41,136 nucleotides of DNA from Nitrosomonas sp. (lineage in GTDB: Bacteria; Pseudomonadota; Gammaproteobacteria; Burkholderiales; Nitrosomonadaceae): contig BQJA01000021.1 of the NCBI GenBank assembly GCA_021604405.1, positions 1-41,136 on the forward strand. The letters run 5' to 3'. Positions 24,524-41,136 of this stretch are shown here, in pieces. The translations under genes and the position numbers were made by a program. The notes under the pieces are model-generated. The model was not told the DNA's origin. It was given only the letters and a program-made list of their open reading frames with translations, and did not search any database. Position 1 is the stretch's first letter. The number at the start of each line of letters is the position of its first letter.

Positions 24524-24532
24524 AATAAACAA

Positions 24533-24563
24533 GAGGTTAGAGGTTTTCTCTAGCCTCTTTTTT
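24533..24563 (+). terminator. Terminator just inside the left end of element 1
   Basis: A 10-bp stem (GAGGTTAGAG / CTCTAGCCTC, one G-U pair) with a GTTTT loop is followed by TTTTTT. It lies ten bases after the tRNA and overlaps the end of the integrase gene. It restores termination for the tRNA after integration. The same design recurs beside the second att copy. Confidence 0.8.
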
Positions 24564-27112: not shown

Positions 27113-27148
27113 ACCCCTCAATATAAGGGGTATTGGTTATCCTGTCAA
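27111..27148 (-). promoter_or_regulatory. Promoter and operator of the rep operon
   Basis: Read on the minus strand, TTGACA (27143-27148) and TATATT (27120-27125) are separated by exactly 17 bases, close to the sigma-70 consensus. The -10 box is flanked by a perfect 8-bp inverted repeat, ATACCCCT and AGGGGTAT (27111-27118 and 27126-27133), a likely operator for a repressor. The -10 lies seven bases from the rep ATG, so transcription should begin at or next to the start codon. Confidence 0.7.
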
Positions 27149-27164
27149 GGATATTTGTTACCCT

Positions 27165-27530
27165 TTAGTCGGAATCGATCTCACGACGCTTATCAATTTT
27201 TATATCACCACTGACTGCTTTCCAGAAGTTGCTGAGTTTACTGGCTATTTTATAACCAACTGATTTATGAGCTAGGGGGCCTTCAGGTGGAAACATCTCA
27301 CGAATATTGATGCCAAGAATCTTTTCATATTTTTTTATGGTGCGTTTATTGTGAATAATAACTAACACTTTCCAACCATAGATGCGTCCAATCATTAGCA
27401 TACCAATGGCAATTTCAAGTTCATCAGCTTGTCCGCGAAAATTCTCAGTAGCTCTGTCGATAATCGAAATATATTGCAGTGCTTCTTCAGGGGATAATAG
27501 TGGGATAGATTGTTTTTCTAACTCGCTCAT
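27165..27530 (-). CDS. Hypothetical protein of 121 residues upstream of rep
   Basis: Family not recognised. It starts MSELEKQSIPLLSPEEALQY with GGAG nine bases before the ATG. The middle (ELEIAIGMLMIGRIYGWKVLV) is hydrophobic enough for a buried helix or strand, followed by a basic segment (HNKRTIKKYEKILGINI) and a C-terminal KIDKRREIDSD. It is the first gene of the leftward operon; the rep promoter lies between it and rep, so the two can be expressed separately. A regulatory role, for example as the repressor of the rep operator, is possible from position, but no HTH is evident. Confidence 0.65.
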   Translation of the reverse strand: MSELEKQSIPLLSPEEALQYISIIDRATENFRGQADELEIAIGMLMIGRIYGWKVLVIIHNKRTIKKYEKILGINIREMFPPEGPLAHKSVGYKIASKLSNFWKAVSGDIKIDKRREIDSD

Positions 27531-27963
27531 GTATGGTCTCCATCTAACAATAGATCAAGAATAAGGCATCAAGGGGTAATAAACAACCTCTGTGAATCAC
27601 GTGATAGAGAAGACGGAAAAGAACGAAAAGTCAAAGGCATTTAGTAGGAAGGAGTAGGTAGGTTTAAACACGTAAGGAGAGTGGGATCGGCCAGCATGCC
27701 CATGAAGCCGGGCATGGCCTTGCGCCGGGTCGGCCGGCGCACCCGTGTGACGGTTTCTTATTAATGTTTTTCGTGTTACCCATTTGTACAGTATCGCAGA
27801 ATAACGGGTTTAATTCTTCGCTTCGCAATTCAAAACACTGCGTAGTTCAGAATCTAACCTTGTTCGTCCAAAATATTTTAGGATGAAATTTATAATATTT
27901 ATTGACTGAGAACCAAAGTGGTGTATTATTGGTGCCTAGTGCTGGGCGAAAACGGAGGAAAAA
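27531..27963. other. Hairpin-rich divergent intergenic region of element 1
   Basis: Between the leftward and rightward genes. It holds two adjacent GC-rich hairpins: CATGCCC (27695-27701) with GGGCATG (27710-27716), and GCGCCGG (27722-27728) with CCGGCGC (27734-27740). They stand out in an AT-rich element. An origin function (double- or single-strand origin of rolling-circle replication) is a reasonable inference; a terminator is less likely as no T-tract follows. Confidence 0.5.
27902..27929 (+). promoter_or_regulatory. Promoter of the rightward cargo gene
   Basis: TTGACT (27902-27907) and TATTAT (27924-27929) separated by 16 bases, 34 bases before the ATG of the 247-residue gene. It is near sigma-70 consensus. 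Confidence 0.6.
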
Positions 27964-28707
27964 ATGAATTTAAGTCAGGAATATTTTGATGAATTACAAA
28001 ATATATCTAAGGAATTTTTGGATCCGATGGTTAAAAGACTTTCAAACGATGAAATTATTCCTCATTCAGAGTGGTACGCTGGTTACACATCTACTGACCA
28101 ACTGCTGAAAAAATCTCGCCTAAATGCGGATTCACGATACTTTACTCTAAGTTTGCTGCATACACTAACAAATTTCCCTTTGGAGTTGATCCTTAATCAT
28201 CTCGAACATTGTGCAACTCGACATTACATTTATGGGGCCTTAAGTATGAGAGATGATCAGCACATAGCGCATATGGGATTATCACAAAGTACTAATAATT
28301 CACTAGATCGCACATGTTATTTTAGTAATTCGACTGATTCGGTGCTTGCCAATTTGCCGCCATGCTGCCTGGAGGCTATTTATCAAGAAGCGGAAAAAAA
28401 ATTGCCTGAAGGCCAATCTGCTGAATTGATCATCGGCTATACGTCACCACTAACTCATGTGCATTCCTTGGGCAGGGAAAAAAATCGGATTGTCTTGAGC
28501 GAAGTTCCTTTACAGCAATCCAGCTTATCAAGCAATTTCTCTGAGTTCCATCTTTATTCACCAACAGAAGCCATTGAGTTTAGTAAGAAAATACTCAAAA
28601 TGAGTGGCTATGTCTGGAACGATGGGACAGTGATTCGTCTTAATAGTTGTATAAAACTAGACTTGGTTCAGTATATCGGAGCCTATGGCCCACGCTATAT
28701 CCACTGA
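27964..28707 (+). CDS. Cargo protein of element 1, function unknown (247 residues)
   Basis: Not recognised. GGAGGAAAAA directly before the ATG is a strong ribosome-binding site and a good promoter lies upstream, so this is surely an expressed gene. The protein is soluble and begins MNLSQEYFDELQNISKEFLD. Its middle contains a His/Cys-rich segment (NHLEHCATRHYIYGALSMRD) and a second Cys pair in LPPCCLEAIYQEAEKKLPEG. There is no signal peptide or membrane helix. It is alone on its strand within the element, opposite the replication operon, where such elements often carry defence or regulatory cargo; that is inference from position only. Confidence 0.7.
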   Translation: MNLSQEYFDELQNISKEFLDPMVKRLSNDEIIPHSEWYAGYTSTDQLLKKSRLNADSRYFTLSLLHTLTNFPLELILNHLEHCATRHYIYGALSMRDDQHIAHMGLSQSTNNSLDRTCYFSNSTDSVLANLPPCCLEAIYQEAEKKLPEGQSAELIIGYTSPLTHVHSLGREKNRIVLSEVPLQQSSLSSNFSEFHLYSPTEAIEFSKKILKMSGYVWNDGTVIRLNSCIKLDLVQYIGAYGPRYIH

Positions 28708-28928
28708 TGTCGTTTTTCTCAATTTATATTCACTTATGTCGCTATACTTAATTGATTTCCAATAAGTTGTCATTAATATTTTTTAAAGGAGAGAACAATG
28801 AAACTCCAAACTTAGCTTTGTTTCAATATACAAAATAATTCTTATGCAATATTACGAATTTGCAATGAATTTAATGATGAGTGAACAATTTATGAATATA
28901 TTTAGTATGTAGCGAGAGAGAGGTGAAT

Positions 28929-29207
28929 ATGGCTAATAAAAGTATTGAGCAACCAGAGCCAAAACTTGAGGAAACACCACAGAAGAAATTTCATAGAGCG
29001 ACTGTAAGTTTTACTCAGAACGATTTAAACAGATTGGATGAGTTGAAGACAGCATTAGATGTTTCCACCAATGCTCAAACACTAAGTATGGCACTCAAAC
29101 TCGCTGCTGAAATAGTTAAGCAGCAAGAGCTAGGGGGAAAAATCATTTTCGATAATGCTGGAAAGCAGAAAGAAATGATAATTGCTGGAATAACGAAAGA
29201 TCAATAA
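28929..29207 (+). CDS. Small protein with possible ribbon-helix-helix character (92 residues)
   Basis: Begins MANKSIEQPEPKLEETPQ with a GAGAGAGGTGAAT ribosome-binding region just before the ATG at 28929; a GTG two codons upstream gives a longer form. After a Glu/Pro-rich leader the segment FHRATVSFTQNDLNRLDELK followed by a helix (NAQTLSMALKLAAEIVKQQ) resembles a ribbon-helix-helix DNA-binding fold: a beta strand followed by two helices. RHH proteins are usually plasmid regulators or antitoxins. No toxin partner is visible next to it. The assignment is by pattern only. Confidence 0.55.
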   Translation: MANKSIEQPEPKLEETPQKKFHRATVSFTQNDLNRLDELKTALDVSTNAQTLSMALKLAAEIVKQQELGGKIIFDNAGKQKEMIIAGITKDQ

Positions 29208-29260
29208 CCTGATATCCTTTAGGTTGTATTTTGCAATTTATTAATTGCTATATTTGGATT

Positions 29261-29307
29261 CTTATAAAACTATCAGATTTAAGTTTAATATCTGGTAGTT
29301 TTATAAG
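29261..29307. terminator. Long hairpin between two cargo genes, probable terminator
   Basis: An 18-bp stem (left arm 29261-29278, right arm 29290-29307) with a single G-U pair encloses an 11-base loop. The arms are AT-rich and end in runs of A and T on either side, so it could terminate transcription in both directions. It follows the RHH-like gene by 54 bases. Confidence 0.6.
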
Positions 29308-29336
29308 CTATTCAATGCGTCAAAAATGCATGCCCG

Positions 29337-29621
29337 ATGAATAATAATGATCAAGATTCAGATGAAAAACCAGAAGATTGGGGTCAGTCTGCTGATGAAA
29401 AGGATGTCTCTGAACTTTATAAAATAAAAGAGTTGGAGAAGGATCACAAGCGGAAATCTATGGCCTTAGCTTGTTTAATGGCTGGCTTCTTTATTTCTGT
29501 TTGTTTGGACCTTGGGTTAATTGCTTTTTCTAAAGAACGATGGACTACTGAAATTTATGTGACAAGTATCGTTCCAATCCTGGCATTCATACTCGGTACA
29601 ACTACAAAAAATAATAAATAA
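29337..29621 (+). CDS. Small membrane protein with two helices (94 residues)
   Basis: Begins with a charged stretch (MNNNDQDSDEKPEDWGQSAD), a short coiled region (ELYKIKELEKDHKRKSM) and two hydrophobic helices, MALACLMAGFFISVCLDLGL (about residues 47-67) and IYVTSIVPILAFILGTT (about 74-90), then a short Lys/Asn tail. No family recognised. It starts at the ATG at 29337; the ribosome-binding site is weak. The last recognisable gene before the right att copy of element 1. A frame at 29667-29885 after it is not convincing. Confidence 0.5.
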   Translation: MNNNDQDSDEKPEDWGQSADEKDVSELYKIKELEKDHKRKSMALACLMAGFFISVCLDLGLIAFSKERWTTEIYVTSIVPILAFILGTTTKNNK

Positions 29622-29993
29622 CCCCGATTACTGGTATTTCATATAGAGCTTATGAATAAGTGGTAATTGTTTTTCCTATTTCTTGCTAATGTGCGTACAG
29701 CTTTAAATGATCTAGTGTGGCTAACCCGTAAACCTGTCAATGATAAAATTCTGATGAATAATAACGGAGTGGAGTGCAATTTATTTTCAGTAGGGTATGG
29801 CCATAACATTTATAAGCAAGTCAGCTGTAAGTTTTATCCAAGAAAACCCAAAGAGGGCTTAGAGTTGATTGTGACGATTTTGTGACAAACTACAATAAGA
29901 GCGCCGCCGTTTGAGGTTGTTTTATATTGACTTAGGAATTGGCAGGCATTGTAAGCAGTTGTTATGTAAAAATATTGAGTCTAGTGATTGCGT
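29622..29993. other. Right end of element 1, no supported gene
   Basis: About 370 AT-rich bases up to the second att copy. One open frame (29667-29885) lacks a good start and any motif. No terminator or RNA gene is evident. Confidence 0.4.
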
Positions 29994-30038
29994 CTCATAA
30001 TCCCTTGGTCGTTGGTTCGAGTCCAACCAGACCCACCA
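29994..30038 (+). repeat. Second copy of the 45-bp tRNA 3' end (right end of element 1 / left end of element 2)
   Basis: Identical over 45 bases to 24479-24523 (CTCATAATCCCTTGG to the CCA). Only the tRNA 3' half is present, so it is not a functional gene. It is the right junction of element 1 and the left junction of element 2. Confidence 0.93.
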
Positions 30039-30046
30039 TTAAATCA

Positions 30047-30078
30047 AAGACTTAAGCTTAACGGCTTAAGTCTTTTTT
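30047..30078 (+). terminator. Terminator at the left end of element 2
   Basis: An 11-bp stem (AAGACTTAAGC / GCTTAAGTCTT, loop TTAACG) is followed by TTTT. It sits 8 bases after the att copy, in the same place and with the same trailing TTTTCTTTTG as the terminator of element 1. Confidence 0.75.
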
Positions 30079-30112
30079 CTTTTGTAAAAACATTTGTAAC
30101 CACTTTGTAACT
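30058..30112 (-). pseudogene. Possible C-terminal remnant of an integrase
   Basis: On the minus strand the frame ending inside the terminator hairpin reads VTKWLQMFLQKKKDLSR and stops. Element 1's integrase ends at the equivalent place, in its own terminator, with HQKKKEARENL. The agreement in position and in the QKKK motif suggests that this is the last piece of a deleted integrase; too short to be certain. Confidence 0.3.
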
Positions 30113-30194
30113 TGTCATGTGCGAATTACTATCTTTAAAGCGACAACTGACAAATTAAACAGACCATGACAGTATGATTCCCAGCGATGAATTC

Positions 30195-30449
30195 TCAGGG
30201 ATAACATTTCATTTGAAATATCATCATTTGCTGCTTTTGATTGGGCGTTTTCTTATTCAAAGATGAATGCGCTCTTGTTTCGTTATGGTAGTTCTGATAT
30301 TGATCCAGTTTTCTAGCCAGATCTTCGGCATTCCAAAACAATACGTGGTCCAAGAATTCTTGTCGGCAGAGCCCAATGCTTCGCGCTACAAATGGATGTG
30401 ATGTAGGTACACCAGCGACCGTTTTGATTTCATTGATTTCCAATATCAT
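30195..30449 (-). pseudogene. Transposase C-terminal fragment (IS3/IS481-type integrase core)
   Basis: An 84-residue reading that contains the end of an rve-type transposase: SHPFVARSIGLCRQEFLDHV, then LFWNAEDLARKLDQYQNYHN and ETRAHSSLNKKTPNQK. This is the conserved stretch after the last catalytic residue in these families; the DDE core and the orfA part are missing, and no IS ends are visible. It is a decayed insertion-sequence remnant inside element 2. Confidence 0.75.
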
Positions 30450-30678
30450 TATTAGGTTTGCTTGTCAACGATGGAATTAAAATAACGCCGGTAACCGAAC
30501 TCATGTATCTCGGCAATGCTTTTCCGGCGGTTAACTGGCATTTACAGAAGAACCGATAATTCTTCGACTGAAATATCGATCACGAGCATCACCGAATGTT
30601 ACCTTAGCATAATGGGTACGCAACTAAATAGATGGCTGCTTTGGGTGCAAAAATGCAGGTTCACGCATGTGTTCGCCT

Positions 30679-30939
30679 TTAAGATTTGCGCGGGCGTTTT
30701 ATCGCACGAATGATTTTATCCAGTTGAAAACGCGTTTTTTTGGTGGCTTGTTCATCATTTTTCGTCAGCGTTTTCTGTACCATTTCTGCAAAATTTATAA
30801 GGTCCTGTCGCGGGTAAGCATCCTGCACACCACTGTCCTGAAAGAATTCGGCAATCCAGAGAGCATTTAATTCGATGTTCCCCGTTTCTTCAAAATATGT
30901 TTCCGCCGCCATCTTAACGTAGTCCGACAGTTTGTGCAT
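30679..30939 (-). CDS. Hypothetical protein of 86 residues downstream of the BolA-like gene
   Basis: Begins MHKLSDYVKMAAETYFEETG with GGAGA seven bases before the ATG. It is acidic in the first half, mostly helical, with a basic end (KTRFQLDKIIRAIKRPRKS). Family not recognised. It lies 17 bases after the BolA-like gene and is probably cotranscribed with it. Confidence 0.6.
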   Translation of the reverse strand: MHKLSDYVKMAAETYFEETGNIELNALWIAEFFQDSGVQDAYPRQDLINFAEMVQKTLTKNDEQATKKTRFQLDKIIRAIKRPRKS

Positions 30940-30956
30940 CGCGTCTCCTAACGCAA

Positions 30957-31349
30957 TTATATGCGAGCAATTCTGGCCGCTAACAATTGATTTGCTTCAG
31001 CGTCTAAGCTGGAAGTTACTTTTCCGGAACTATTTTTTAAATATTGAGCCCCACCAAGGCAGGGGGGAGAATCATGGGGCATTCCACTCTTTTCAAACCA
31101 TTCTTCTAGAGTCATTGCATGCAGAGCAAGAGCATGAATAGAATAAGCAAGCTCATCAGCCAGGATGTTGTTAACTATTCGATGACGAGCTAAAGGCGTT
31201 TTTCCATTAAACTCATCGGAAACGATAGTCACCTTGAAATGACATTCGGATCCTTTTGGCACATTGTGCTTATGACTTTCATTGGCTACTACCAGAAACT
31301 GTGGTCGCAGTGTTTGAAGTTTGTTCTCGATGGAATTTTGAATAATCAT
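30957..31349 (-). CDS. BolA/IbaG-family protein
   Basis: Small proteins of this family bind monothiol glutaredoxins and [2Fe-2S] clusters and can act as regulators. The 130-residue product starts MIIQNSIENKLQTLRPQFLV and contains the family core: HKHNVPKGSECHFKVTIVSD, FNGKTPLARHRIVNNILADE and AYSIHALALHAMTLEEWF, including the invariant His of the RHR motif. An extra C-terminal tail of about 35 residues (SPPCLGGAQYLKNSSGKVT) is beyond the usual 85-105 residues. The start at 31349 is chosen because the longer frame to 31529 runs into the divergent gene. It is transcribed divergently from the nitroreductase gene with 63 bases between, so they may share regulation. Confidence 0.85.
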   Translation of the reverse strand: MIIQNSIENKLQTLRPQFLVVANESHKHNVPKGSECHFKVTIVSDEFNGKTPLARHRIVNNILADELAYSIHALALHAMTLEEWFEKSGMPHDSPPCLGGAQYLKNSSGKVTSSLDAEANQLLAARIARI

Positions 31350-31412
31350 AATACAATCACTATAAATGAATCTACAGACCCAGTCTATAACATCGAATGA
31401 GTAATATAAATT

Positions 31413-33074
31413 ATGTCTGATTCTTATCAAAAAAAACAAGTTGACGAAGTTGTGGCGTATCACCATTTGAGTAAACACCATTTCAACCGGTACGCGCCGA
31501 GCCTCGGCTATCTCGACTGGGCAACGCAACCTGATTCGTATCGGCGTTATGCCGGTGCGAAGAACATTCCGCTTCGAAAAATTGATTCCGATGAATTTTT
31601 GGGCCTAAGTTATGAAAGCGTGTTTCATGCTAAAACAGACTGGCACTGTAAAAGTGATTTAAATATCGACTTGATCTCCCAATTATTTTTTGACAGTCTT
31701 TCACTTTCGGCCTGGAAGCGTGCAGGTGAAAGCCGCTGGGCGCTTCGCGTTAACCCCTCAAGCGGCAATTTACATCCGACAGAAAGTTATTTGCTATCAG
31801 GGCCGATGGATTCAATTAGTGATAAGGCGTTCATTGCACATTATTCTTCAGATGAGCATATTCTCGAGTTGCGGAGTGAATTCGATGTTTCGCTCTGGAA
31901 CGAAGTGCGTAAAGGGTTCCCGGATGAGGTATTTTTTATTGGGCTTAGCTCTATTTACTGGCGGGAGGCTTGGAAATATGGTGAGCGTGCGTTTCGTTAC
32001 TGCCATCACGATGTCGGCCACGCGATTGGTGCGATCAGTCTTGCAGCTTCTTCACTGGGCTGGCAGTCAAAACTCATAGAGACACTAAGCAGAGAGGAAT
32101 TATCTATATTGTTTGGCTTGCGGGATTCACTCGGTCCAGAAGCGGAACACCCGGACTGTTTGCTCGCCATCACACCCCAAGCAGCCGACGTGAACCAAAC
32201 GGAAATAGCAAAAGACATTATCGATCAACTCCAATTGTTAGATTGGCAGGGGAAGGCAAACCAACTCAGTCAATCCCATGTGAGCTGGCCAAATCTAGAG
32301 AAAATCGCGGCAGTGACAACAAAGGCGAATAATGAACCGATTCTGTTTGATAATCCTTTACGAGGTGAAGAGAAAACAACCGAAGAGTATACGAATCGAT
32401 CTGTTTCTTTTCGAAAGATGGTTCGACAGCGACGAAGTGCTGTTGCAATGGACGGGAAGACGTCGATAAGGCGCGAGCAATTTTACCAGATTCTAAAAAA
32501 GACATTGCCGGAAGAGAATCGGTATCCTTACAGAACGCTACCGTGGTCGTCCAAAGTTCATTTTGCCATATTTATTCATCGAGTTGAAAACCTTGAGTCG
32601 GGACTTTATTTTTTAATCCGCGATGTTGAGCAAACGGAATACTTGAAAAGAGTGGCGCGATCTGATTTCCTCTGGGAGAAGCCGGTAGGTTGTCCAGAAA
32701 ACCTGCCTCTTTTCAAATTGCTGGTCGCGGATGTGCGAGTTGCAGCGAAGCAAATTTCCTGTTTGCAGGATATCGCCGCGGAGGGTTGTTTTAGTCTGGG
32801 AATGATCACGCAATTTCAGGAACCCCTTCAAAAATACGGAGCCTGGTTTTACCCGCGGCTCTACTGGGAATGCGGTCTGGTCGGACAGGTGCTTTATCTG
32901 GAGGCCGAAGCGATTGGCATTCGCGCCACAGGCATCGGGTGTTTTTTTGATGACCCGATGCACCGTGATATTCTTGGCATTGAAGATCTGAGTTATCAAT
33001 CGCTCTATCATTTCACGATCGGTGGCGCACTTGAGGATACCCGGATTGAATCCCATCCGGCTTATATTGATTAA
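31413..33074 (+). CDS. SagB/ThcOx-like nitroreductase, two-domain
   Basis: A flavin-dependent dehydrogenase-like protein of 553 residues made of two nitroreductase-fold halves. The first half carries the SagB/ThcOx-type FMN-binding motif RVNPSSGNLHPTESYLL (about residue 112) and a segment FRYCHHDVGHAIGAISLAA. The second half begins with the RRSAVAMDGKTSIRREQF region (about residue 342), has a GLYFLIRD strand and ends with EAIGIRATGIGCFFDDPMHR. SagB-type enzymes oxidise azolines in peptides, but no precursor peptide, cyclodehydratase (YcaO) or transport genes are near, so the substrate is unknown. Paired divergently with the BolA-like gene. Confidence 0.83.
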   Translation: MSDSYQKKQVDEVVAYHHLSKHHFNRYAPSLGYLDWATQPDSYRRYAGAKNIPLRKIDSDEFLGLSYESVFHAKTDWHCKSDLNIDLISQLFFDSLSLSAWKRAGESRWALRVNPSSGNLHPTESYLLSGPMDSISDKAFIAHYSSDEHILELRSEFDVSLWNEVRKGFPDEVFFIGLSSIYWREAWKYGERAFRYCHHDVGHAIGAISLAASSLGWQSKLIETLSREELSILFGLRDSLGPEAEHPDCLLAITPQAADVNQTEIAKDIIDQLQLLDWQGKANQLSQSHVSWPNLEKIAAVTTKANNEPILFDNPLRGEEKTTEEYTNRSVSFRKMVRQRRSAVAMDGKTSIRREQFYQILKKTLPEENRYPYRTLPWSSKVHFAIFIHRVENLESGLYFLIRDVEQTEYLKRVARSDFLWEKPVGCPENLPLFKLLVADVRVAAKQISCLQDIAAEGCFSLGMITQFQEPLQKYGAWFYPRLYWECGLVGQVLYLEAEAIGIRATGIGCFFDDPMHRDILGIEDLSYQSLYHFTIGGALEDTRIESHPAYID

Positions 33075-33246
33075 TGATGGTATTGTTAACTTAAGTCAAA
33101 TTGGGCTGATTTCTGCCTCGGGCCAGCATTCCGAATACAGGACAATCAATTAGTTACAAATTCGTGTATCGATTATTTTTGTTCAAATTTACTTAACTTG
33201 ACAATATCAGTGCGGCGTTTAAACACGTTACTTTTTCAAAACAAAC

Positions 33247-33281
33247 CCTTATAATGTACATATTTTATGTACATTATAAGG
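33247..33281 (+). promoter_or_regulatory. Palindromic operator of the toxin-antitoxin operon
   Basis: A perfect 15-bp inverted repeat, CCTTATAATGTACAT and its complement, with five bases between. It contains a -10-like TATAAT (33250-33255) and ends seven bases before the antitoxin ATG. This is the expected place for autorepression by the Phd-type antitoxin. Confidence 0.75.
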
Positions 33282-33287
33282 TCATCC

Positions 33288-33533
33288 ATGACTTCAGTGA
33301 ATGTTACCGAATTACGCCAGCACTTGCCAGATTATCTCAAACAAGTACAAGCAGGTGAAGAAATTGTGATTACGTTGCACGGCAAAATCATTGCCCGCAT
33401 TGTTCCTGATCGCAAAGAAAGCAAACGTGAGGCAGCTCTTAACCGCCTGGATGCGCTTCGCGGCACGGTCATTGTGGGTGACATTCTCGCACCTCTGGAT
33501 GAAGAATGGACAGGCGATGCTGACAATCTGTGA
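33288..33533 (+). CDS. Phd/YefM-family antitoxin
   Basis: The 81-residue antitoxin of a type II pair. It starts MTSVNVTELRQHLPDYLKQV, the usual Phd/YefM N-terminal DNA-binding domain, with GEEIVITLHGKIIARIVPDR as the second half, and a C-terminal tail (APLDEEWTGDADNL) that should bind the toxin. I use the ATG at 33288; the longer frame from 33267 runs into the operator. It overlaps the toxin start by 17 bases. An autoregulatory palindrome lies upstream. Confidence 0.9.
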   Translation: MTSVNVTELRQHLPDYLKQVQAGEEIVITLHGKIIARIVPDRKESKREAALNRLDALRGTVIVGDILAPLDEEWTGDADNL

Positions 33534-33918
33534 TACAAATATTTTGCTATTTTGGGCAGATCGTCATGAGCGTTTAACGATAGCTGCTCAGCAAGCACTG
33601 GATAATGGCAGTGCAGACGGCAAGTTGGCTTGTGCCGCCATTAGCTTCTGGGAAATCGCTTTACTGTTTCGGAAAAACAGATTGGTGCTTCCTGCGCAAC
33701 ATACACCAACTTCTTATATGGAAGATATTGTTGCGTCATTGGAGCTAAACATTCTTTCGATCACACCTGCGATCGCTGTATTAGCTGAAAGCGGTATCGT
33801 CATACATGGTGATCCAAGCGATAGATTGATCGCGGCCACAGCCATTGCGCATCAAGCACCGCTCATTACTGCCGATAAAAAACTTCATGCGACGCCTGGC
33901 TTGAACTGTATCTGTTGA
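33517..33918 (+). CDS. VapC-type PIN-domain toxin
   Basis: Mg2+-dependent ribonuclease toxin of 133 residues. The PIN acidic residues are in place: Asp6 (CDTNILLFWAD), Glu46 (SFWEIALL), Asp102 (PSDRLIAATA) and Asp120 (ITADKKL). The start MLTICDTN at 33517 overlaps the antitoxin gene by 17 bases, which couples their translation. The full operon with operator is intact, so it may serve to stabilise element 2. Confidence 0.92.
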   Translation: MLTICDTNILLFWADRHERLTIAAQQALDNGSADGKLACAAISFWEIALLFRKNRLVLPAQHTPTSYMEDIVASLELNILSITPAIAVLAESGIVIHGDPSDRLIAATAIAHQAPLITADKKLHATPGLNCIC

Positions 33919-34106
33919 TTTAACTTAAATTTTAAAAATAACGCTATCCCTTGTAATTGTTGTCAAACATTGTAACTTGACGCATGTAAATCTGTTCAGC
34001 AAATTAAAACTATTCTGCATGAACATTGGGCCTTAAGACGGTAGTTTTACCCTTTTTGCGGAACATAAAATAACATAACGCATTGATATTAATATATTTC
34101 GTGGTA

Positions 34107-34153
34107 GACTCATAATCTCTTGGTCGTTGGTTCGAGTCCAACCAGACCCACCA
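34107..34153 (+). repeat. Third copy of the tRNA 3' end (right end of element 2)
   Basis: From GACTCATAATCTCTTGG to the CCA. It matches the tRNA over 47 bases with one substitution (TCCCT to TCTCT in the anticodon stem). The matching G and A at its left lie outside the 45 bp shared with copy 2. As the outermost copy it is probably the original 3' end of the tRNA, displaced by the first integration. Confidence 0.9.
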
Positions 34154-34300
34154 TTTCATACTCCATTGTTTTCATTGGATTATTTTTCTATTCTTTCGGG
34201 TTTAGAAAAGAGCGTTCGTAGCAACAAATTGAATTGTAAGAAATTTTTGGTTCGATTCCCATCAGCTTCTTTTTCTGCTTTTTTGATTTTTGTGCAAGGT

Positions 34301-35362
34301 CTATTGGAATGAGGTTCGTCCGTACCATGTCCCTTTGCCGGTTCCGTGTTGCGCAAGATGATTTGCGGAAACGAGAGACTGGAGGTGTTTTTTCACAGTG
34401 TTACGGTTTGCACCTGTGATTTTAACTATCTGGCTAATCGTTATTTTCCCATGCTCTTTTGCCACCTCCAGAATTTGTACGGAAAGATCCGGCAACATGT
34501 CGATAACAATTTTCTCGCGTTCTATTTTCTTCTCAAGTTTTTTCTTTTGTTGCTGGAGCGCTCGCAAGAAATACACTACCCAAGGTTCCCATTCCGGTGC
34601 TTTGCTTCGGATTGTACCCTGTGTTCGACGCAAGGCTATATAGTAGGCTTCTTTAGTTTGTTCTACTACGCTTTCCAGCGAACTATAGAAAACATATACA
34701 TAGCCACTACGTAAAAGTAACAACGTTGTAAGAATACGCGATAGTCTGCCATTCCCGTCTTGAAACGGATGAATTTCTAGAAACACAACGATAAAAATGG
34801 CGATCACAAGCAGTGGATGCAGTTTATTTCTGTTTAGAGTTGTATGCGCCCATTCAACCAATTCACTCATTAAGCGCGGGGTATCGAAGGGCGTTACTGT
34901 TTCGAACACAACGCCGATTGCTTTTCCGTCCGTATCAAAAGCGCTAACATGGTTAGGGTTGGTTTTATATTCACCGCGATGCCGTTTATCTTTTTCGCTG
35001 TGAACAAGAAGATCACGGTGCAGTTGTTTTATATGGTTTTCAGTGAGGTCAATTGCATCCGAATACGCAAATACCATTTCCATGACCTGCGCATATCCGG
35101 CGATTTCCTGTTCGTCGCGTGTATCAAATTTTTTGATTTCAAGGCTGGATAGAAGTTGCTCGACTTCTCTGTCGGATAGCTTGCTCCCCTCAATCCGCGT
35201 AGATGAACCGATACTTTCGATTGTTGCAACTCGGCGTAATGCGGATAGCCGTTCCGGGGCTAGCGTGCCAAGCGCCTTCCAAGCACCTTTGAATTCATCC
35301 AGTTCGGCAATGAGGCCGAGGATTTCAGGCGTAATATTCAGGGAATCAGTCTGAATGCTCAT
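34301..35362 (-). CDS. Fic-domain protein with C-terminal winged HTH
   Basis: Fic proteins transfer AMP (or another nucleotide part) to target hydroxyls. The 353 residues from the ATG at 35362 (MSIQTDSLNITPEILG) contain an N-terminal inhibitory motif STRIEG (about residue 54; class II architecture), the Fic catalytic motif HPFQDGNGRLSR (about residue 198) with the catalytic His and nucleotide-binding residues, and a C-terminal HTH (ISQIVKITGANRNTVKKHL, about 309-327). Longer readings use ATGs in the tandem repeats upstream. It is transcribed towards element 2 and lies just outside its right att copy. No antitoxin gene is adjacent; inhibition is built in. Confidence 0.9.
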   Translation of the reverse strand: MSIQTDSLNITPEILGLIAELDEFKGAWKALGTLAPERLSALRRVATIESIGSSTRIEGSKLSDREVEQLLSSLEIKKFDTRDEQEIAGYAQVMEMVFAYSDAIDLTENHIKQLHRDLLVHSEKDKRHRGEYKTNPNHVSAFDTDGKAIGVVFETVTPFDTPRLMSELVEWAHTTLNRNKLHPLLVIAIFIVVFLEIHPFQDGNGRLSRILTTLLLLRSGYVYVFYSSLESVVEQTKEAYYIALRRTQGTIRSKAPEWEPWVVYFLRALQQQKKKLEKKIEREKIVIDMLPDLSVQILEVAKEHGKITISQIVKITGANRNTVKKHLQSLVSANHLAQHGTGKGTWYGRTSFQ

Positions 35363-35391
35363 ACCCATAAATATACCCATAAATATCCAAA
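35363..35391 (-). repeat. Tandem repeats at the start of the fic gene
   Basis: The unit ATACCCATAAAT occurs twice in tandem and a partial third copy follows (ATACCCATAAATATACCCAT then AAATATCC). A related ATAAATATACCC lies 40 bases further on. They stand directly before the start codon and could be operators for the HTH of the Fic protein. Confidence 0.5.
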
Positions 35392-35398
35392 TAATCAA

Positions 35399-36050
35399 GA
35401 TCAGAGCATGATGCTTATAAATATACCCAAAAGTACCCGAAGGGCTGTTTCAAACACTAAGGCAGTGGTTCAATGTCGCCAGAAATACTTTGCAGTACGG
35501 TGTTCCAGTCCTGCAAAGTATTAAAAAGTTGGTTCGATATTTCTCCTTTCTTCTCCACCATAAAACATGGAGTTGCAAGTGTATGCGTATAACTCCATTT
35601 TCTTTTATGCTAAATGCCATCAGTATGTCACTGCACTTTATCAATGTCACAGTCTGCCAAGCAAAACAACAGGTAATAAAGAAACCCGTCCTAAAGACGG
35701 GTTAAATTCTTTTCTATTACTAAGTCTGGCCACTCAAATTTGGGTTCCAGTAAGCCGATTTAATGTAATGCGTCTCAGATTACTATAACGCATACCGTAT
35801 TTTTTCTTTACACACCTCATCGTTAACCATTATCACGTCAATAATCTTTATTCAGCAGTAGCAATTCGCGAGCCACTTAATCTGGTTTCATTTATCGAGT
35901 GAAAAATTTTTGTTGTTAAGTAATTAAAATTTTTTCCGTTATGCTTTCAGTAGCAGGACATATCCTGTCAATACTGCAAACACTGAATCTGGAAATGTTT
36001 TTCTAAAAAAACAGTGATGTAAGTTTCTAGGCAAATTGAGGATAGATGAA
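35399..36050. other. Intergenic region between fic and the ParA-like gene
   Basis: About 650 bases without a well-supported gene. A possible hairpin AACCCGTC / GACGGGTT (35683-35703) may end a transcript. A 34-codon frame on the minus strand (35457-35561, MVEKKGEISNQLFNTLQDW) is protein-like but isolated. The promoter for the ParA-like gene should lie at the right end. Confidence 0.4.
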
Positions 36051-36935
36051 ATGGCTAAGTCGATTGCAATTTATAACAACAAAGGCGGCGTAGGAAAAAC
36101 GACACTGTCGCTTTTCTTGTCTGACTTTCTTTCATCAATTACCATAAACAAAAAGAAATCCAAGGTATTGGTTATGGATTTTGATCCTCAAGCTTCATGT
36201 GCTAATGCTGTGTTAGGCATAGAAAAAGTATCTGAGATTATAAATAACTCGTTAACGATACCATACATATTGAATGCGAAGCTCAATCAAAAAAAGGAAA
36301 TAGATATATCAAGGTTCATCTTTACCCGAGAGGAAAATAACAGCACAGAAACAAAAAAGACACGGTTGGGAAATCTTGATGTCATGGTGTCTGAGCCAAA
36401 TTTAGCGCTTAGCTTTGATGAAAAAGTTTCCTTGAAGGACTCTTTGAAATTGGCTCGCTGGATGAGTAATGAATTAGCCGCGGAATATGATTTTATTTTT
36501 GTTGATTTGCCTGGAAGCATATCAAAAGTAAATAAATTTTCTTTGGTTGGCGCTTTTCTGGCAGATAACTATGTTATCCCAACCGAACCAAACAGATTAA
36601 ACGTTAATGCCCTATCTGGCACTTTAAATATGCTTGATAATATTAGAACTTGGAAAGGGCGAAGTAGCGGCTATAATTTATTGGGCTTTGTTCTTAACAA
36701 GGCAGATAAAAGAGCCAAACAATTTATTGCTCATAAAGATGATTTGAATCAGTTTGCAAAACATAAAAATTGCAAAATCTATAAAAATGTTCTTCCACCA
36801 ACACCTAAACTATCAGATGCATCCGATGACTCTATGCAATTTATTACCTTGTCAGATAGATACGATAGCTATTACGATAATGTTAGAAAACTTGTGATAG
36901 AAATAACTGCAGATCTGGGTTTTACCAAAAGTTAA
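36051..36935 (+). CDS. ParA/MinD-type P-loop ATPase, orphan
   Basis: A deviant Walker A ATPase of 294 residues used in DNA partitioning or positioning. It starts MAKSIAIYNNKGGVGKTTLS, with the signature Lys of the deviant Walker A, followed by VLVMDFDPQASCANAVLG, the Walker B region YDFIFVDLPGS and a switch-like stretch IPTEPNRLNVNALSG. The ATG at 36051 follows GAGGA; an in-frame TTG at 36036 is less likely. No ParB or centromere gene is adjacent. It is AT-rich compared with its neighbours, which points to recent acquisition. Confidence 0.88.
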   Translation: MAKSIAIYNNKGGVGKTTLSLFLSDFLSSITINKKKSKVLVMDFDPQASCANAVLGIEKVSEIINNSLTIPYILNAKLNQKKEIDISRFIFTREENNSTETKKTRLGNLDVMVSEPNLALSFDEKVSLKDSLKLARWMSNELAAEYDFIFVDLPGSISKVNKFSLVGAFLADNYVIPTEPNRLNVNALSGTLNMLDNIRTWKGRSSGYNLLGFVLNKADKRAKQFIAHKDDLNQFAKHKNCKIYKNVLPPTPKLSDASDDSMQFITLSDRYDSYYDNVRKLVIEITADLGFTKS

Positions 36936-37333
36936 AATAAAGCAGAAACTGCTTATATACCCCACCCACTCCTTGAATAGAGGTGTCAACAAACAAATAG
37001 CTCTTTTGCTTCATGTCCGCTCGCTTCGCCCTTCCAATCTTTAAATTTCAAATGAGCGAAAGGTATCTTGACACATAGGGTGTTCGCCGCTACCGGTTCT
37101 CTTAAAATGAGTTGATGGATTCCATTTGCCGTTATACGCCTGATACACCAATAGCCAAGCAAATTTTTTCTGTTTCGTTTTGATAGAGCCAAAAATGTAT
37201 GTTTTTTTGTCGATAATCTGTGCGGTCGAGCGAAATGATGGGCTGGCTAATGGTCACGTTCATTGGACATAAATAAAGCATGTGATATGGTTCGGTGGAT
37301 TACTAGTCAATCTATCAAAAAAACATTAGCGAT
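36936..37333. other. Intergenic region between the ParA-like gene and the DGR target
   Basis: About 400 bases with no supported gene. Minus-strand frames around 36986-37240 read as possible protein fragments (for example PIISLDRTDYRQKNIHFWL, in another frame from LGYWCIRRITANGI), which may be a decayed transposase, but I cannot assign it. The KAP-FGE gene promoter is presumably at the right end. Confidence 0.35.
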
Positions 37334-40159
37334 ATGAAGCAGGTAAATTTTGGTAAGTCTTTTGGGCATCCTGTACTCGCAGCTCAACTTGGTAAACGTT
37401 TGCGTAAGCATTACAGCGTTGCTGCTACTTCGGGTGAGTCGTCACTGGTAATCGGAATTTTTGGTGAATGGGGTAGTGGCAAAAGTAACCTGCTGCATTT
37501 GGTGCAGGAAGTGATGCAGTCGGACAGCGGCAACAAAGATACACCTGTCATCACGGTAGCATTTAACCCGTGGCGCTATGAGAAGGAAGAACATCTGATT
37601 GTGCCGTTACTAAAAACGACACAGGTGGAAATTGTTAATTGGGTACTGGAACATAGAACGCTCGGAGATAAAACCAAGGATTTTCTTGTAAAGGCGGCGG
37701 CATTTATGAAAGCATCTGCTTTTGCTTTTGCCGGCGCTTTTAAAGCCAAATACACGCAGAAAAGCACGGGAATCTCGATCGAGTTTGAAGCTAGTAAGTT
37801 TCTGAAGGAAATTGAAAGACGGGTAGAGCTTCAAAATGAAAGTCTTTTTTCGGATTATGATTCAGTTTACTACGAGTTTCAAAAGCATTTAAGCGAATTG
37901 ACTTCCTCCAGCAAACCGGGCTTGCGGCTTTTGTTTCTAATTGATGACCTTGATCGCTGTTTACCGGAAAAGTCAGTGGAAATGCTGGAATCCATCAAGC
38001 TGTTTCTGGATGTTAAAGGTTGCGCCTTTGTGCTGGCGTTGGATGATGAAGTGGTTGAGCGCGGCATTATTCATCGTTACCGTGATTACCTGTTCCAGCA
38101 AGGCGATGGGGCGGGACAAAACGGGTATTCTTTCGCGCACCTGCCGATTACCGGGCAGGAATATCTGGAAAAGATCGTCCAGCTTCCATTCCGTTTGCCA
38201 CAGCCTACTCGTGACAATATCCGTTTGTTCCTGCAACAACGTGAACCAGCGTTGTTTGGTAAGTCTGATGAAACAGAACGTGGCAAACATGTACTGTTGG
38301 ATTTGTTTGCTGATTGTATTCCACCTGTGCCGCGTAAGTTGATTCGGGCAGTCGAGTTGTTGAAATTATTACTGGATATTCTGGATACACGTAAAAAACG
38401 CGATGAATACCAGTTATTACCATTGGCTAAGTTAACCTTGTTGCAGTTATTTGCACCGGATTTGTGTCGTTTTGGGCGGCGTTATGATGCAGGTTTTATG
38501 CAGCGTTTGGAAAATTGGGTCAAGTATGACCATTGGGGGATGGATGATTTCATTGGGCGTACTGAGTGTGAAATGTTAGGACTGGAATATCAGCATCTTG
38601 GTGACACCGAAAAGCGTGACGCAAATTTTTCAGGACTAGAAAAGGCCAAACAGAACGATTTGCGCCTATTCCGTAAAAATGGTGTGCGTTTGTACCAGCA
38701 TTTTGAGGTGGCGAGGCAAAATCGCAGTGGATTTGATCCTGAACGCCTGATCTGTAGCGGTTCGATTGCAGATGAGAATCTGACTCCCTATTTCAGCTTT
38801 CTGGAAGATGTTATACCTGAACAAGAGGATATTGTGTCATCAGGGAAAAAACATTCTCAAGAAGATAAAGGAGCTGAATTGCAAGGAAGCGGTGTAGCGT
38901 CTGCAGCAGGCGGGCCGTCCGCCTCTGAAGATTCACGCCCACTTGCCCGTATTCACAAGCTGGACGATTTTCTTAACCGTCTGTTTTCTACCGATAGGGC
39001 CAACTGGAAATCCGCTTTGCAGAGTGATGAAATGGATGGTCGGGTACTGGATGATAAGGCATTTACAGCGATCCAGGAACGGTTGAGGGATGCTAGCTAT
39101 ATCGGGCTTGCCAATCAGGCGGACTGGTTGAGAGCGCTGGATAATGTATTGACTGACGCACAATTTCAGTTATTGGCGCAGCAGATGGAAAACTTTGCAG
39201 AAGTTTTCCCTGATATAGATGTTTCTAATCTGGATGTGTTATCTGATATCGGCTTGTGGGTTGTGGAATTAAACAGGGAACGTAAGCAACTGCTTGAGTC
39301 ATATTTGCAGTCCATTAGCAGTTGGGCGCTGGATATTGTTGAAAATGGCAAACTGGAACCTGTGAAACGGGCTGCTATCGGGGATATTCTCGGGCAGGTG
39401 GGTGACTCGCGTTTTTACGATGAGGATCATTTTTATTTGCCCAGGCAGTTTCAGGGTGAGAAGGAAAAGAATCACGGTTTTATCGAAATGCCGGCTGGTA
39501 AGTTTGTGATGGGGGGAAATGACGAGAAGCATGAGGTTACCATAAGCGATAGTTTCCGGATTGCCCGTTACCCGGTGACTGTTGCGCAATATGCCTGTTA
39601 TGTTGATCAAGAAGCAGAAACACCAGATGATTGGCAGAAGCAATTGCTGTACCCAAATCGGCCGGTTACTAATGTCAGCTGGAAGAACGCCAGTGCTTAT
39701 TGTGTATGGCTTAAGGAGCGCTTGTTGGAAAAAAATGTTATTAAAGCAAAGCAATCTGTTCGTTTGTTGACAGAAGCTGAGTGGGAGCGGGCAGCCTGTT
39801 CTGGTGATCGGCGTATTTATCCGTGGGGTAATGATTGGGATATCAGCAGAGCTAATGCAGCGGGAGAGATAGGTCATCCCAGTGCAGTCGGTATGTATCC
39901 AGGGCAACATCCAGAAGGTATTCAGGATATGGCAGGCAATGTCTGGGAATGGACCTGTTCGAACTGGCGCGATCAGTTTGACGGCAGTGAGCAGCAATGT
40001 AATAACAATACCGAGGACACTCAAAACCGCGTGTTGCGCGGTGGTTCCTGGGACGGTCACCCGGACGACCTGCGCGCGGCGGCGCGCTACGACTACCATC
40101 CGGTCATCCGTGACGACAATCTCGGTTTTCGGGTGTTGTGTTCGTCCCCCATCGAATAG
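37334..40159 (+). CDS. KAP P-loop NTPase fused to FGE/C-type-lectin domain; DGR target protein
   Basis: A 941-residue fusion. Residues 1-350 are a KAP-family NTPase: Walker A GIFGEWGSGKSN (41-52), a hydrophobic insert at about 117-138 (FLVKAAAFMKASAFAFAGAF) as often seen in KAP proteins, and Walker B with the Asp-Asp-Leu-Asp-Arg motif (RLLFLIDDLDRCLP, 198-211). A helical region follows, with a flexible Ser/Gly-rich stretch near 515-535. From about residue 717 an FGE-sulfatase/SUMF1 domain begins (FIEMPAGKFVMGG), with RLLTEAEWERAACSG, YPWGNDW and DMAGNVWEWTCSNW. Its final 43 residues (from VLRGGSWDGHPDDLR) are the DGR variable region: solvent-exposed ligand-binding positions of the C-type-lectin fold. 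Known KAP proteins include PifA, which excludes phage T7. I infer a signal or defence NTPase with a diversifiable recognition domain. Confidence 0.9.
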   Translation: MKQVNFGKSFGHPVLAAQLGKRLRKHYSVAATSGESSLVIGIFGEWGSGKSNLLHLVQEVMQSDSGNKDTPVITVAFNPWRYEKEEHLIVPLLKTTQVEIVNWVLEHRTLGDKTKDFLVKAAAFMKASAFAFAGAFKAKYTQKSTGISIEFEASKFLKEIERRVELQNESLFSDYDSVYYEFQKHLSELTSSSKPGLRLLFLIDDLDRCLPEKSVEMLESIKLFLDVKGCAFVLALDDEVVERGIIHRYRDYLFQQGDGAGQNGYSFAHLPITGQEYLEKIVQLPFRLPQPTRDNIRLFLQQREPALFGKSDETERGKHVLLDLFADCIPPVPRKLIRAVELLKLLLDILDTRKKRDEYQLLPLAKLTLLQLFAPDLCRFGRRYDAGFMQRLENWVKYDHWGMDDFIGRTECEMLGLEYQHLGDTEKRDANFSGLEKAKQNDLRLFRKNGVRLYQHFEVARQNRSGFDPERLICSGSIADENLTPYFSFLEDVIPEQEDIVSSGKKHSQEDKGAELQGSGVASAAGGPSASEDSRPLARIHKLDDFLNRLFSTDRANWKSALQSDEMDGRVLDDKAFTAIQERLRDASYIGLANQADWLRALDNVLTDAQFQLLAQQMENFAEVFPDIDVSNLDVLSDIGLWVVELNRERKQLLESYLQSISSWALDIVENGKLEPVKRAAIGDILGQVGDSRFYDEDHFYLPRQFQGEKEKNHGFIEMPAGKFVMGGNDEKHEVTISDSFRIARYPVTVAQYACYVDQEAETPDDWQKQLLYPNRPVTNVSWKNASAYCVWLKERLLEKNVIKAKQSVRLLTEAEWERAACSGDRRIYPWGNDWDISRANAAGEIGHPSAVGMYPGQHPEGIQDMAGNVWEWTCSNWRDQFDGSEQQCNNNTEDTQNRVLRGGSWDGHPDDLRAAARYDYHPVIRDDNLGFRVLCSSPIE
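40027..40154 (+). repeat. DGR variable repeat (VR)
   Basis: The last 128 bp of the KAP-FGE gene before its stop codon. It aligns without gaps to 40310-40437 (offset 283). There are 23 differences: 18 lie where the downstream copy has A, changing it to G (10), T (4) or C (4, counting as I read them), and 5 elsewhere. The first 25 bases and the last codons are nearly constant. Changed codons are mostly AAC or AAT in the template, altering residues such as Asn to Asp, Tyr, Gly or Ile. Confidence 0.9.
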
Positions 40160-40208
40160 CGGTTCGCTGGCGCGCTGATCACTGAGCTGCGGGTTTGCGG
40201 TTCACTGT

Positions 40209-40225
40209 GCGCCGCGAAGCGGCGC
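40209..40225 (+). repeat. GC-rich hairpin downstream of VR
   Basis: A perfect 7-bp stem (GCGCCGC / GCGGCGC) with a GAA loop, 54 bases after the VR end. DGRs such as that of Bordetella phage BPP-1 need a hairpin or cruciform after VR for homing. A TTTTTT eight bases after the stem makes a terminator for the target gene an alternative. Confidence 0.6.
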
Positions 40226-40237
40226 CGCGCGTATTTT

Positions 40238-40266
40238 TTGCATGTCGTGTGATAGATTGGCATACT
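40238..40266 (+). promoter_or_regulatory. Candidate promoter for the TR RNA
   Basis: TTGCAT (40238-40243) and CATACT (40261-40266) are separated by 17 bases, 44 bases before the TR. The boxes match the consensus only partly. If real, it would express the TR separately from the target gene. Confidence 0.3.
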
Positions 40267-40309
40267 GTTGGTGCAGGTTGCTGTTCTGCGGGGTTCCCTG
40301 AGACGAGGC

Positions 40310-40437
40310 CCGTGTGTTGCGCGGTGGTTCCTGGAACAATCATCCAGACAACATGCGCGCGGCAACGCGCAACAACAACCATCCGGACAACCGTAACAAC
40401 AACATCGGTTTCCGGATGGTGTGTTCGTCCCACATCG
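40310..40437 (+). ncRNA. DGR template repeat (TR)
   Basis: A non-coding 128-bp copy of VR rich in AAC codons in the VR frame (AACAACAACCATCC, AACCGTAACAACAACATC). It has 32 A, of which 18 are changed in VR, against 5 of 96 other bases. This adenine bias is the mark of DGR mutagenic reverse transcription with TR RNA as template. It reads as [19 protein letters not shown], but no ribosome-binding site or sensible gene surrounds it. The spacer between VR and TR (40160-40309) has no avd or other gene. Confidence 0.88.
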
Positions 40438-40562
40438 GCATCTGCTCCGACGCCGGAATTGCCAGCCGGTTACGGCTTGCTAGCCGAGGCCGGAGATAGA
40501 TTGATGGCGCAGGTGAGTCCCGTCCGCACGTGGCAACATCGCGTCGGGCGCATATTAAAGCC

Positions 40563-40604
40563 GAGCGCCGCCTGGATTCGTTCCCGTGGCGCTCACCTTT
40601 TTTT
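40563..40604 (+). terminator. Terminator after the TR region
   Basis: Stem GAGCGCC (40563-40569) with GGCGCTC (40588-40594), an 18-base inner region that can pair further, and seven T at 40598-40604. It would end the TR transcript about 170 bases after TR, and separates it from the opposite-strand avd-like remnant. Confidence 0.7.
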
Positions 40605-40720
40605 AGTATCTGGATTGCTTGGATCCAGCCGCCCAACAATTTGCCAATCTCTGCGACCTGGGCGCTGACATGGGCATACTGTCCATCGTTGAACCAGTGC
40701 CATTGATAGGCGACCAGCAC
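40605..40720 (-). pseudogene. Possible avd (DGR accessory protein) C-terminal remnant
   Basis: The minus-strand frame reads YQWHWFNDGQYAHVSAQVAE followed by IGKLLGGWIQAIQI. It resembles the last helix of Avd proteins; bAvd of BPP-1 has a similar VETAQVLIAEVGRILGSWI, from memory. The start of the gene is not seen. A short upstream stretch in another frame (LLRYLTDR) may be its continuation after a frameshift. Its orientation is opposite to VR and TR, unlike common DGR cassettes. Identification rests on a 20-residue pattern only. Confidence 0.4.
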
Positions 40721-40743
40721 CGGTCAGTGAGATAGCGCAGCAA

Positions 40744-40938
40744 TTACAGTGCATAGCGTTGCCGGTGTTTGTTGAGTACTGCCATGCTGATTTTCTTGAA
40801 CGAGTATACCGCTTCTTCACCCCGCGACTTAACTCTGCCGATGTTTGTGATGTCAAGCAAATATGCAACAACTCCGTCATGATAATACAAATACCATTTA
40901 CCTTTATACATAGAAAAAATAACAGACGGTAGCGTCAC
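40744..40938 (-). CDS. Hypothetical reading frame or gene fragment, minus strand
   Basis: A 64-residue frame that is protein-like in places (MYKGKWYLYYHDGVVAYLLD, then ITNIGRVKSRGEEAVYSFKK). It begins with GTG and has no ribosome-binding site, so it is more likely a piece of a broken gene than an intact one. It may belong with the fragment that continues to the window end. No family recognised. Confidence 0.3.
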   Translation of the reverse strand: MTLPSVIFSMYKGKWYLYYHDGVVAYLLDITNIGRVKSRGEEAVYSFKKISMAVLNKHRQRYAL

Positions 40939-40956
40939 ACGCTGGGATATAAAATT

Positions 40957-41136
40957 TCAGCAGCGGGAAGTATGTGGCCGGACGATTGCAAGCGCAGGTG
41001 GTTTGTCCGTGCGAAGTCCCGCATAAAATAAATATATGGTAGCATGCGGGTCTTCATCAAAAGAAGCTTTGAGCGATGCCCCGAAAATGTCAGGTGATTC
41101 GGGATGAATTTTAGGAGGCCAGTTAATGATGCCACA
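40957..41136 (-). CDS. Partial hypothetical protein at the window edge
   Basis: The minus-strand frame is open to the window end for 59 codons and stops at 40957. It reads INWPPKIHPESPDIFGASLK, then a stretch with DEDPHATIYLFYAGLRTDKP, and looks like real coding sequence by composition. Family not recognised. The rest lies outside the window. Confidence 0.4.
   Translation of the reverse strand, partial: CGIINWPPKIHPESPDIFGASLKASFDEDPHATIYLFYAGLRTDKPPALAIVRPHTSRC

Follow-up and report, generated by a model that had tools for sequence, protein, structure and literature searches.

Introduction

Diversity-generating retroelements (DGRs) that have lost part of their machinery, DGR targets with a KAP NTPase domain and DGRs of the genus Nitrosomonas are already in print, as passages of two publications make clear (Schillinger et al., 2012, PMC3521204; Dore et al., 2024, PMC10907252). 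Dore et al. name KAP NTPases among the targets of clade 5D and Nitrosomonas among the hosts with several related DGRs; in the passages compared, the Nitrosomonas loci are not described singly. In the inactivated DGRs of DiGReF the variable region (VR) and the template repeat (TR) differ at adenines only, which was taken by the authors as a sign of recent inactivation (PMC3521204). A word search of the accessible text of Roux et al. (2021, PMC8144416) returned neither Nitrosomonas nor "orphan". No title on genus-wide stranded DGR targets in Nitrosomonas was found in a search of mainly open-access literature. Catalogues of DGRs usually start from the reverse transcriptase (RT) and proceed outward, so that a stranded target with no RT tends to be overlooked.

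Here we describe a stranded target at the end of a contig of 41,136 bp from Nitrosomonas sp. (assembly GCA_021604405.1, contig BQJA01000021.1); this whole stretch is called the window in the following. It is very likely that we see here the remaining left half of a degenerate DGR, one of a type native to Nitrosomonas, whose machinery has been lost and whose target, a gene encoding a KAP P-loop NTPase with an FGE-sulfatase/C-type-lectin domain (KAP-FGE), has become fixed.

Results

A VR/TR Pair with Differences at Template Adenines

A sequence-only reading of the window had proposed a DGR pair of 128 bp without gaps, and recomputation returned exactly the same repeat, with the VR at 40027-40154 and the TR at 40310-40437 (both on the forward strand, starts 283 bp apart). 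In an independent repeat search of 30000-41136 this pair was the longest direct repeat. The count of 23 differences was reproduced as well: 18 of the 32 TR adenines differ from the VR, compared to 5 of the 96 other TR positions (p = 2.2e-9, Fisher/hypergeometric), and the substitutions from TR to VR at adenines comprise A>G (11), A>T (4) and A>C (3). As expected from the AAC-rich template described earlier, the TR holds ten AAC/AAT codons in the frame of the target gene, and it resembles DGR templates in general, which are rich in these codons. The VR lies at the end of the target gene but is not literally its last 128 bp, as the stop codon occupies 40157-40159 and the VR stops two coding bases earlier. 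The TR is located outside the target gene, and as DNA query against its own assembly (E up to 0.01) it matched itself and the VR only.

For the polarisation of the 23 differing sites, the only ones polarised, the TRs of three RT-bearing genomes of the same genus (G032, G090, and G067) and of the remnant G062 were used for comparison. The TR bases at 40364, 40403, 40412, 40416, and 40419 are private to the TR of the window. When the two private adenines (40364, 40416) are left out together with site 40432, where the VR/TR difference is fixed, 15 of 29 adenine sites and 5 of 96 non-adenine sites differ (p = 7e-8). Three of the five non-adenine differences (40403, 40412, 40419) fall on private TR bases, and therefore the template itself has changed; site 40313 is polymorphic among the TRs compared, and opposite 40343 the base is private to the VR. 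Site 40432 is an A in all five TRs compared and a C in the VR of the window and in five VRs of G032, G090, and G067. This difference at the 3′ end of the pair, which we take to be the one named IMH versus IMH*, is accompanied by conserved noncoding sequence after the VR. From work on Bordetella it is said that the last part of the VR is not overwritten by homing, so that changes in this part do not date the last event. With its differences concentrated at template adenines, the pair is a genuine DGR signature.

Remnant of avd and Missing RT

Behind the TR only the end of an accessory gene is left. An avd remnant on the reverse strand (40619-40714, NF033474) comprises the last 32 of 106 residues (75-106) and is 81% identical to the avd of the complete locus L019 from the same genus (G032:C41). 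An avd gene or an equivalent is common in DGRs, although not universal. The DNA match between the window and L019 stops at 40719, and 40720-41136, in place of the remaining avd and the RT, has no significant match to L019. Within this segment a frame of 59 codons had no Pfam match, and a search of the genome for a second copy returned only the overlap with another contig and five short matches. This overlap consists of the last 141 bp of the window, which are identical to the first 141 bp of contig C47 (27 kb). C47 begins with a DUF3300 gene, and no DGR parts were found in the first 20 of its 27 kb. For the site upstream of the DUF3300 gene no DNA match was obtained in the other 84 genus genomes (E up to 1e-5), and an empty site is therefore not demonstrable.

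The assembly of 3.74 Mb in 199 contigs, of which the window is the whole contig C21, is listed as 100% complete. Searched with PF00078, it yielded an RT-Cas1 fusion as the only RT detected, and the RT protein of L019 (E up to 10) returned this fusion only. With the avd-RT DNA of L019 (9150-10831) only the avd tail, the block after the VR and three short matches were obtained. A DGR RT surviving in broken form at another place was likewise considered and discarded, as neither the protein nor the DNA search detected one. Since no DGR-type RT with the motif (I/V/L)GxxxSQ was detected, the locus is classified as a DGR remnant and not as a working DGR; a retained VR and TR with missing or broken machinery correspond to the degenerate DGRs in the passages of Dore et al. 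(2024) and Schillinger et al. (2012) compared. The RT-Cas1 fusion (RVT_1 and Cas1, 704 aa) is located at L001:1294-3408 (G000:C43).

Comparison with a Complete Locus and Other RT-Bearing Relatives

In L019 the order is target with VR, TR, avd (reverse strand), RT and a second target with its VR reversed; the RT carries the motifs YVDD and IGNLTSQ. The window is 82% identical to L019 over the stretch that begins at 39926 and ends roughly 160 bp past the TR; further on, only the 3′ end of avd matches. Both loci share the order VR-TR-avd (reverse strand) and the blocks after VR and TR. In contrast to the window, L019 possesses an intact avd, an RT and a second target, and its targets are TIR-nSTAND1-FGE and TIR-FGE proteins instead of KAP-FGE. 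The block after the VR (40155-40233, forward strand; the stop codon, then noncoding sequence) is common to both VRs of L019 and in part to other VRs of the genus. Near 40209-40225 it contains an inverted repeat, GCGCCGC-GAA-GCGGCGC, which by its sequence is possibly a target-site hairpin or a terminator; its folding was not exceptional (z = -1.9). The noncoding block after the TR (40438-40602, forward strand) is conserved in five loci, remnants included, and is probably the 3′ portion of the RNA of the TR; RNAalifold, run on five sequences without a control, gave 48 pairs, three of them with double-sided changes.

In the nearest RT-bearing relatives (G032, G090, and G067) the five VR/TR pairs contain 4, 3, 1, 4, and 1 non-adenine differences. 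The sequence-only reading had taken the five such differences of the window as drift since the last homing event, which is weak evidence on its own in view of these relatives. In its favor, complete loci further removed within the genus mostly show 0 or 1 in the matched stretch, although the finder retained a pair there only if at least 70% of its differences were at A. Counts of non-adenine differences alone would thus not show the loss of the element; the missing RT and avd do. The remnant G062 is more decayed, with 11 non-adenine differences, a stop in the TR and broken RT pieces elsewhere, and in G021:C87 the TR is cut short. A contig of a metagenome-assembled genome (MAG) of N. communis (L040, G010:C46) carries a full-length DGR RT beside a VR-bearing target; neither TR nor avd was found on this contig of 5 kb. 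For L041 VRs are present, and no TR was found on the stretch examined. The finder for adenine-biased repeats returned nothing in L039, L040, L041, L043, L048, L050, and L020.

The KAP-FGE Target

The target gene (37334-40159, forward strand) encodes 941 aa in an intact frame. The KAP NTPase spans residues 35-320 and the C-terminal FGE-sulfatase domain (PF03781) residues 714-934 (E 3.5e-44). The latter reaches the VR, which agrees with the earlier placement of the VR at the C-terminal end of a C-type-lectin/FGE domain; judged by sequence, the VR lies in the 3′ end of such a gene. The FGE end matches Treponema TvpA (2y3c) at E 2e-8. A fold model of the protein was too poor for use (mean predicted local distance difference test score 50). 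The KAP part resembles QatA, the ATPase of the Qat anti-phage system (NF041923, E 9.9e-35), but with 120 bits compared to the curated cut-off of 600 it is not a member; other Qat genes were not sought. From its domain company, this match below the cut-off and passages of Kaur et al. (2020, PMC7159879) and Dore et al. (2024, PMC10907252), the protein may act in defense and be an immune-type sensor.

Only two close proteins were present among the best 120 of 2,256 matches listed, P0001 (99% identical) and P0002 (90% over 852 aa). Between P0002 and the window, 11 of 20 codons with a template adenine differ, compared to 2 of the remaining 22 codons of the VR and, outside the VR, 76 of 810 residues (p = 7e-7), and the KAP-FGE gene was therefore a real DGR target in its lineage. 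P0001, a sequence of unstated provenance, differs from the window at 7 of 899 residues outside the VR and at 0 of 42 inside, its VR being identical. No VR change was thus seen between the two nearest sequences, a comparison with little power. None of the best 120 of 7,826 RT matches listed lies on a contig with the length of that of P0002 (103,457 bp).

KAP-FGE proteins with VR, TR and an adjoining RT gene also occur in a Nitrospirae MAG (L042) and a Desulfurivibrionaceae MAG (L044). As in the window, the KAP NTPase is combined with FGE and the VR lies at the C-terminus, whereas these loci keep the TR and an RT gene (RVT_1), flanked by two targets of which the second is NACHT-FGE. Five other FGE-domain loci in the genome of the window (G000:C36, C167, C70, C53, and C125) are without TR-like DNA.

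Possible Mosaic Origin of the Target 3′ End

The 3′ end of the target gene (39926-40159, forward strand) is a possible grafted VR cassette, its DNA being 77-80% like that of Nitrosomonas TIR/STAND-FGE targets. Similarity to three Nitrosomonas loci begins at 39926, and none was found upstream. This start coincides with a conserved FGE motif, so that a graft is not certain. Within the FGE domain, residues 715-760 are nearest to a marine gammaproteobacterial KAP-FGE protein (L039, 24/46, compared to 7-19 for four Nitrosomonas targets), residues 806-850 show no preference (L039 18/45, Nitrosomonas targets 18-19/45), and residues 899-940 are nearer to the Nitrosomonas targets (26-31/42, compared to 18/42 for L039). 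In the remaining 84 genomes of the genus, no match of the KAP part (E up to 1e-15) exceeded 33% identity. The mosaic would fit a recruitment of targets by addition of a VR-bearing end, as discussed in the passages of Dore et al. (2024, PMC10907252) seen, with a boundary that is unproved.

Stranded Targets in the Genus Nitrosomonas

Full-length DGR-type RTs, defined by the motifs xGxxxSQ and YxDD, were found in 12 of 85 genomes of the genus (G006, G009, G010, G018, G021, G032, G067, G084, G090, G094, G100, and G108); the match in G067 holds one TGA. RT matches without a locus were not motif-checked, and one of them (G087:C173, 26%, 485 codons) belongs to a genome counted as RT-less. DNA like the VR of the window was present in 30 of the 85 genomes, and one best VR per genome was used. 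Ten of these 30 contain a full-length DGR RT, and none was found in the other 20. Of the latter, 17 are at least 90% complete; G019, G028, and G061 consist of a single contig and G080 of two. Pieces of an RT are kept in six of the 20, in G002, G008, G019, G033, and G087 the last part with differing breakpoints and in G062 several broken pieces. In G015, for which no VR match was obtained, half of an avd gene and the end of a DGR RT lie on different contigs, both with stops (G015:C50 and G015:C30; L013, L076).

Comparison of VRs among strains had been suggested as a check of the DGR assignment, and the VRs of the relatives indeed vary mainly at sites with a template adenine. With sites classified by the TRs of G032, G090, and G067, the mean entropy among the 20 RT-less genomes was 1.49 bits at 26 adenine sites, 1.13 at seven sites with A in some TRs and 0.42 at 95 non-adenine sites. 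Restricted to codon positions 1 and 2 the values were 1.49 compared to 0.31, and none of 10,000 label shuffles gave a difference as large. At the ten AAC/AAT codons the entropy at positions 1, 2, and 3 was 1.70, 1.52, and 0.54 bits, and the third base was C or T in 191 of 197 cases in RT-less and 99 of 100 in RT-bearing genomes. We read this retention as a trace of adenine mutagenesis, because under ordinary diversifying selection third positions would be expected to vary as well.

In 14 of the 20 RT-less and all 10 RT-bearing genomes, the reading frame before the VR either is open for 230 codons or more or continues uninterrupted to the limit of the locus examined (p = 0.07); among the six RT-less targets below this threshold G030 still has 219 codons. 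A domain scan covered 18 of the 30 VR-bearing proteins besides that of the window (14 RT-less, 4 RT-bearing), many of them incomplete and cut by the flank of the stretch examined. FGE was found in 18 of 18 and nSTAND1 or TIR in 11 of 18.

Other Features of the Window

Upstream of the target gene a Fic-family protein with a winged-helix end (34301-35398) is 65% identical to the Fic gene of L041 (Nitrosomonas sp. Nm51, 6837-7904), which is located between two FGE targets; Fic genes are perhaps recurrent neighbors of FGE targets. Further upstream, the 3′ 45 bp of a tRNA-Met (24447-24523) recur at 29994-30038 and 34109-34153, and a tyrosine integrase (24540-25574) and a Rep_trans replication gene (26036-27121), both on the reverse strand, follow the tRNA. 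The region 24447-34153 perhaps consists of two integrated elements in tandem, roughly 5.5 and 4.1 kb long.

Discussion

We propose past mutagenic retrohoming from TR to VR: an element with the order target (VR), TR, avd (reverse strand), RT and second target would have introduced adenine-mutagenized TR copies into the part of the KAP-FGE gene that encodes the FGE domain. A deletion or rearrangement may then have taken away the RT together with the 5′ portion of avd, leaving VR and TR stranded. Afterwards the TR would have drifted, and the target gene would have stayed open with a fixed, DGR-made binding surface. The target, proposed as an immune-type sensor, is now probably frozen. The recognition of a DGR pair in the sequence-only reading is borne out by the adenine signature, the conserved block after the TR and the avd remnant; its suggestion of an only intermittently active system is not supported, as no DGR RT was detected in the assembly, avd is a stub of about 32 codons and the VR is the same in the 99% identical P0001.

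Several explanations compete with a degenerate DGR. That the gene end was simply duplicated and diverged, with an adenine bias due to chance or composition, could be suggested by two copies only 283 bp apart from start to start, but it is virtually inconceivable given the adenine concentration (p = 2e-9), the same bias in RT-bearing relatives, the conserved block after the TR and the presence of an avd remnant. The VRs of P0002 and of the genus vary at the same template-adenine sites while third codon bases stay C or T, and a simple gene duplication, which had been named as the refuting case, is excluded by this variation. A graft is unlikely rather than untenable: here a block of VR, TR and avd stub, already without an RT, would have come by recombination from another Nitrosomonas DGR, and the present copy would never have mutated in its new place. 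In its favor are the DNA similarity to three Nitrosomonas loci, which sets in at 39926, the shift within the FGE domain from L039 (715-760) to the Nitrosomonas targets (899-940) and the lack of a KAP-part match above 33% in any other of the 85 genus genomes (E up to 1e-15). P0002, 90% identical over 852 KAP-FGE residues, differs at the adenine codons of the VR, and hence the gene diversified after the fusion; the middle of the FGE domain (806-850) is without preference, and the conserved motif at the start of similarity leaves the graft uncertain.

We consider it distinctly improbable that the DGR is complete and active, its RT (with avd or a substitute) missing from the assembly only or acting in trans. 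Such a case is suggested by the end of the window 0.7 kb past the TR and by passages of Dore et al. (PMC10907252) on targets probably diversified in trans and on structural variants with intact RT within one population. Yet the truncated avd and 400 bp that do not match the complete element are part of the assembled contig itself, the overlapping C47 runs on into the DUF3300 gene, the genome is listed as 100% complete with no DGR RT detected, and the TR contains bases absent from all four other TRs. Some observations nevertheless weigh against a degenerate DGR with a fixed target. An RT of about 1.2 kb could sit in an unassembled gap between the 199 contigs or belong to a structural variant within the population; passages of Dore et al. 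(PMC10907252) report intact RTs in such variants for DGR 3 and 7 of Thiohalocapsa. Moreover, RT-bearing relatives carry 1-4 non-adenine differences per VR, so drift alone is no proof of inactivity, and the comparison with P0001, of unstated provenance and differing at seven residues in all, has low power.

The degenerate-DGR reading can be extended to the genus, albeit tentatively, as a possibility that we rate below even. The DGR of Nitrosomonas would be a generator which was repeatedly used and then discarded, with RT and avd lost repeatedly at differing breakpoints and many VR-bearing TIR/STAND/KAP-FGE targets staying open. If true, fixed sensors whose binding sites were made by DGRs would form a genus-wide panel that is passed on in the manner of a germline repertoire. 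The VR search recovered 30 of 85 genomes, three times as many as combine such a VR with a full-length DGR RT (10 of 85). In the stranded VRs the NNY codon signature of adenine mutagenesis is retained, so that past mutagenesis can be read from the target alone. With this, it can be tested whether hypermutated sensors of the immune type persist as fixed receptors after loss of the mutator or simply decay.

Among the described systems, the degenerate DGRs of Thiohalocapsa PB-PSB1 resemble the window in their missing or pseudogenized key machinery and in their targets, which combine FGE/CLec with STAND, TIR or other NTPases; in that strain each class keeps a complete locus which may act in trans, whereas no DGR RT was detected in the assembly of the window (passages of Dore et al., PMC10907252). 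The inactivated DGRs of DiGReF likewise left VR/TR pairs with a broken RT, as far as the parts of Schillinger et al. (2012, PMC3521204) compared describe them; unlike these cases, the window has an undetected RT, most of avd is gone, and non-adenine changes have accumulated, mostly in the TR. Degenerate DGRs as such are known, and it is the genus-wide stranding of targets that makes the Nitrosomonas loci of interest.

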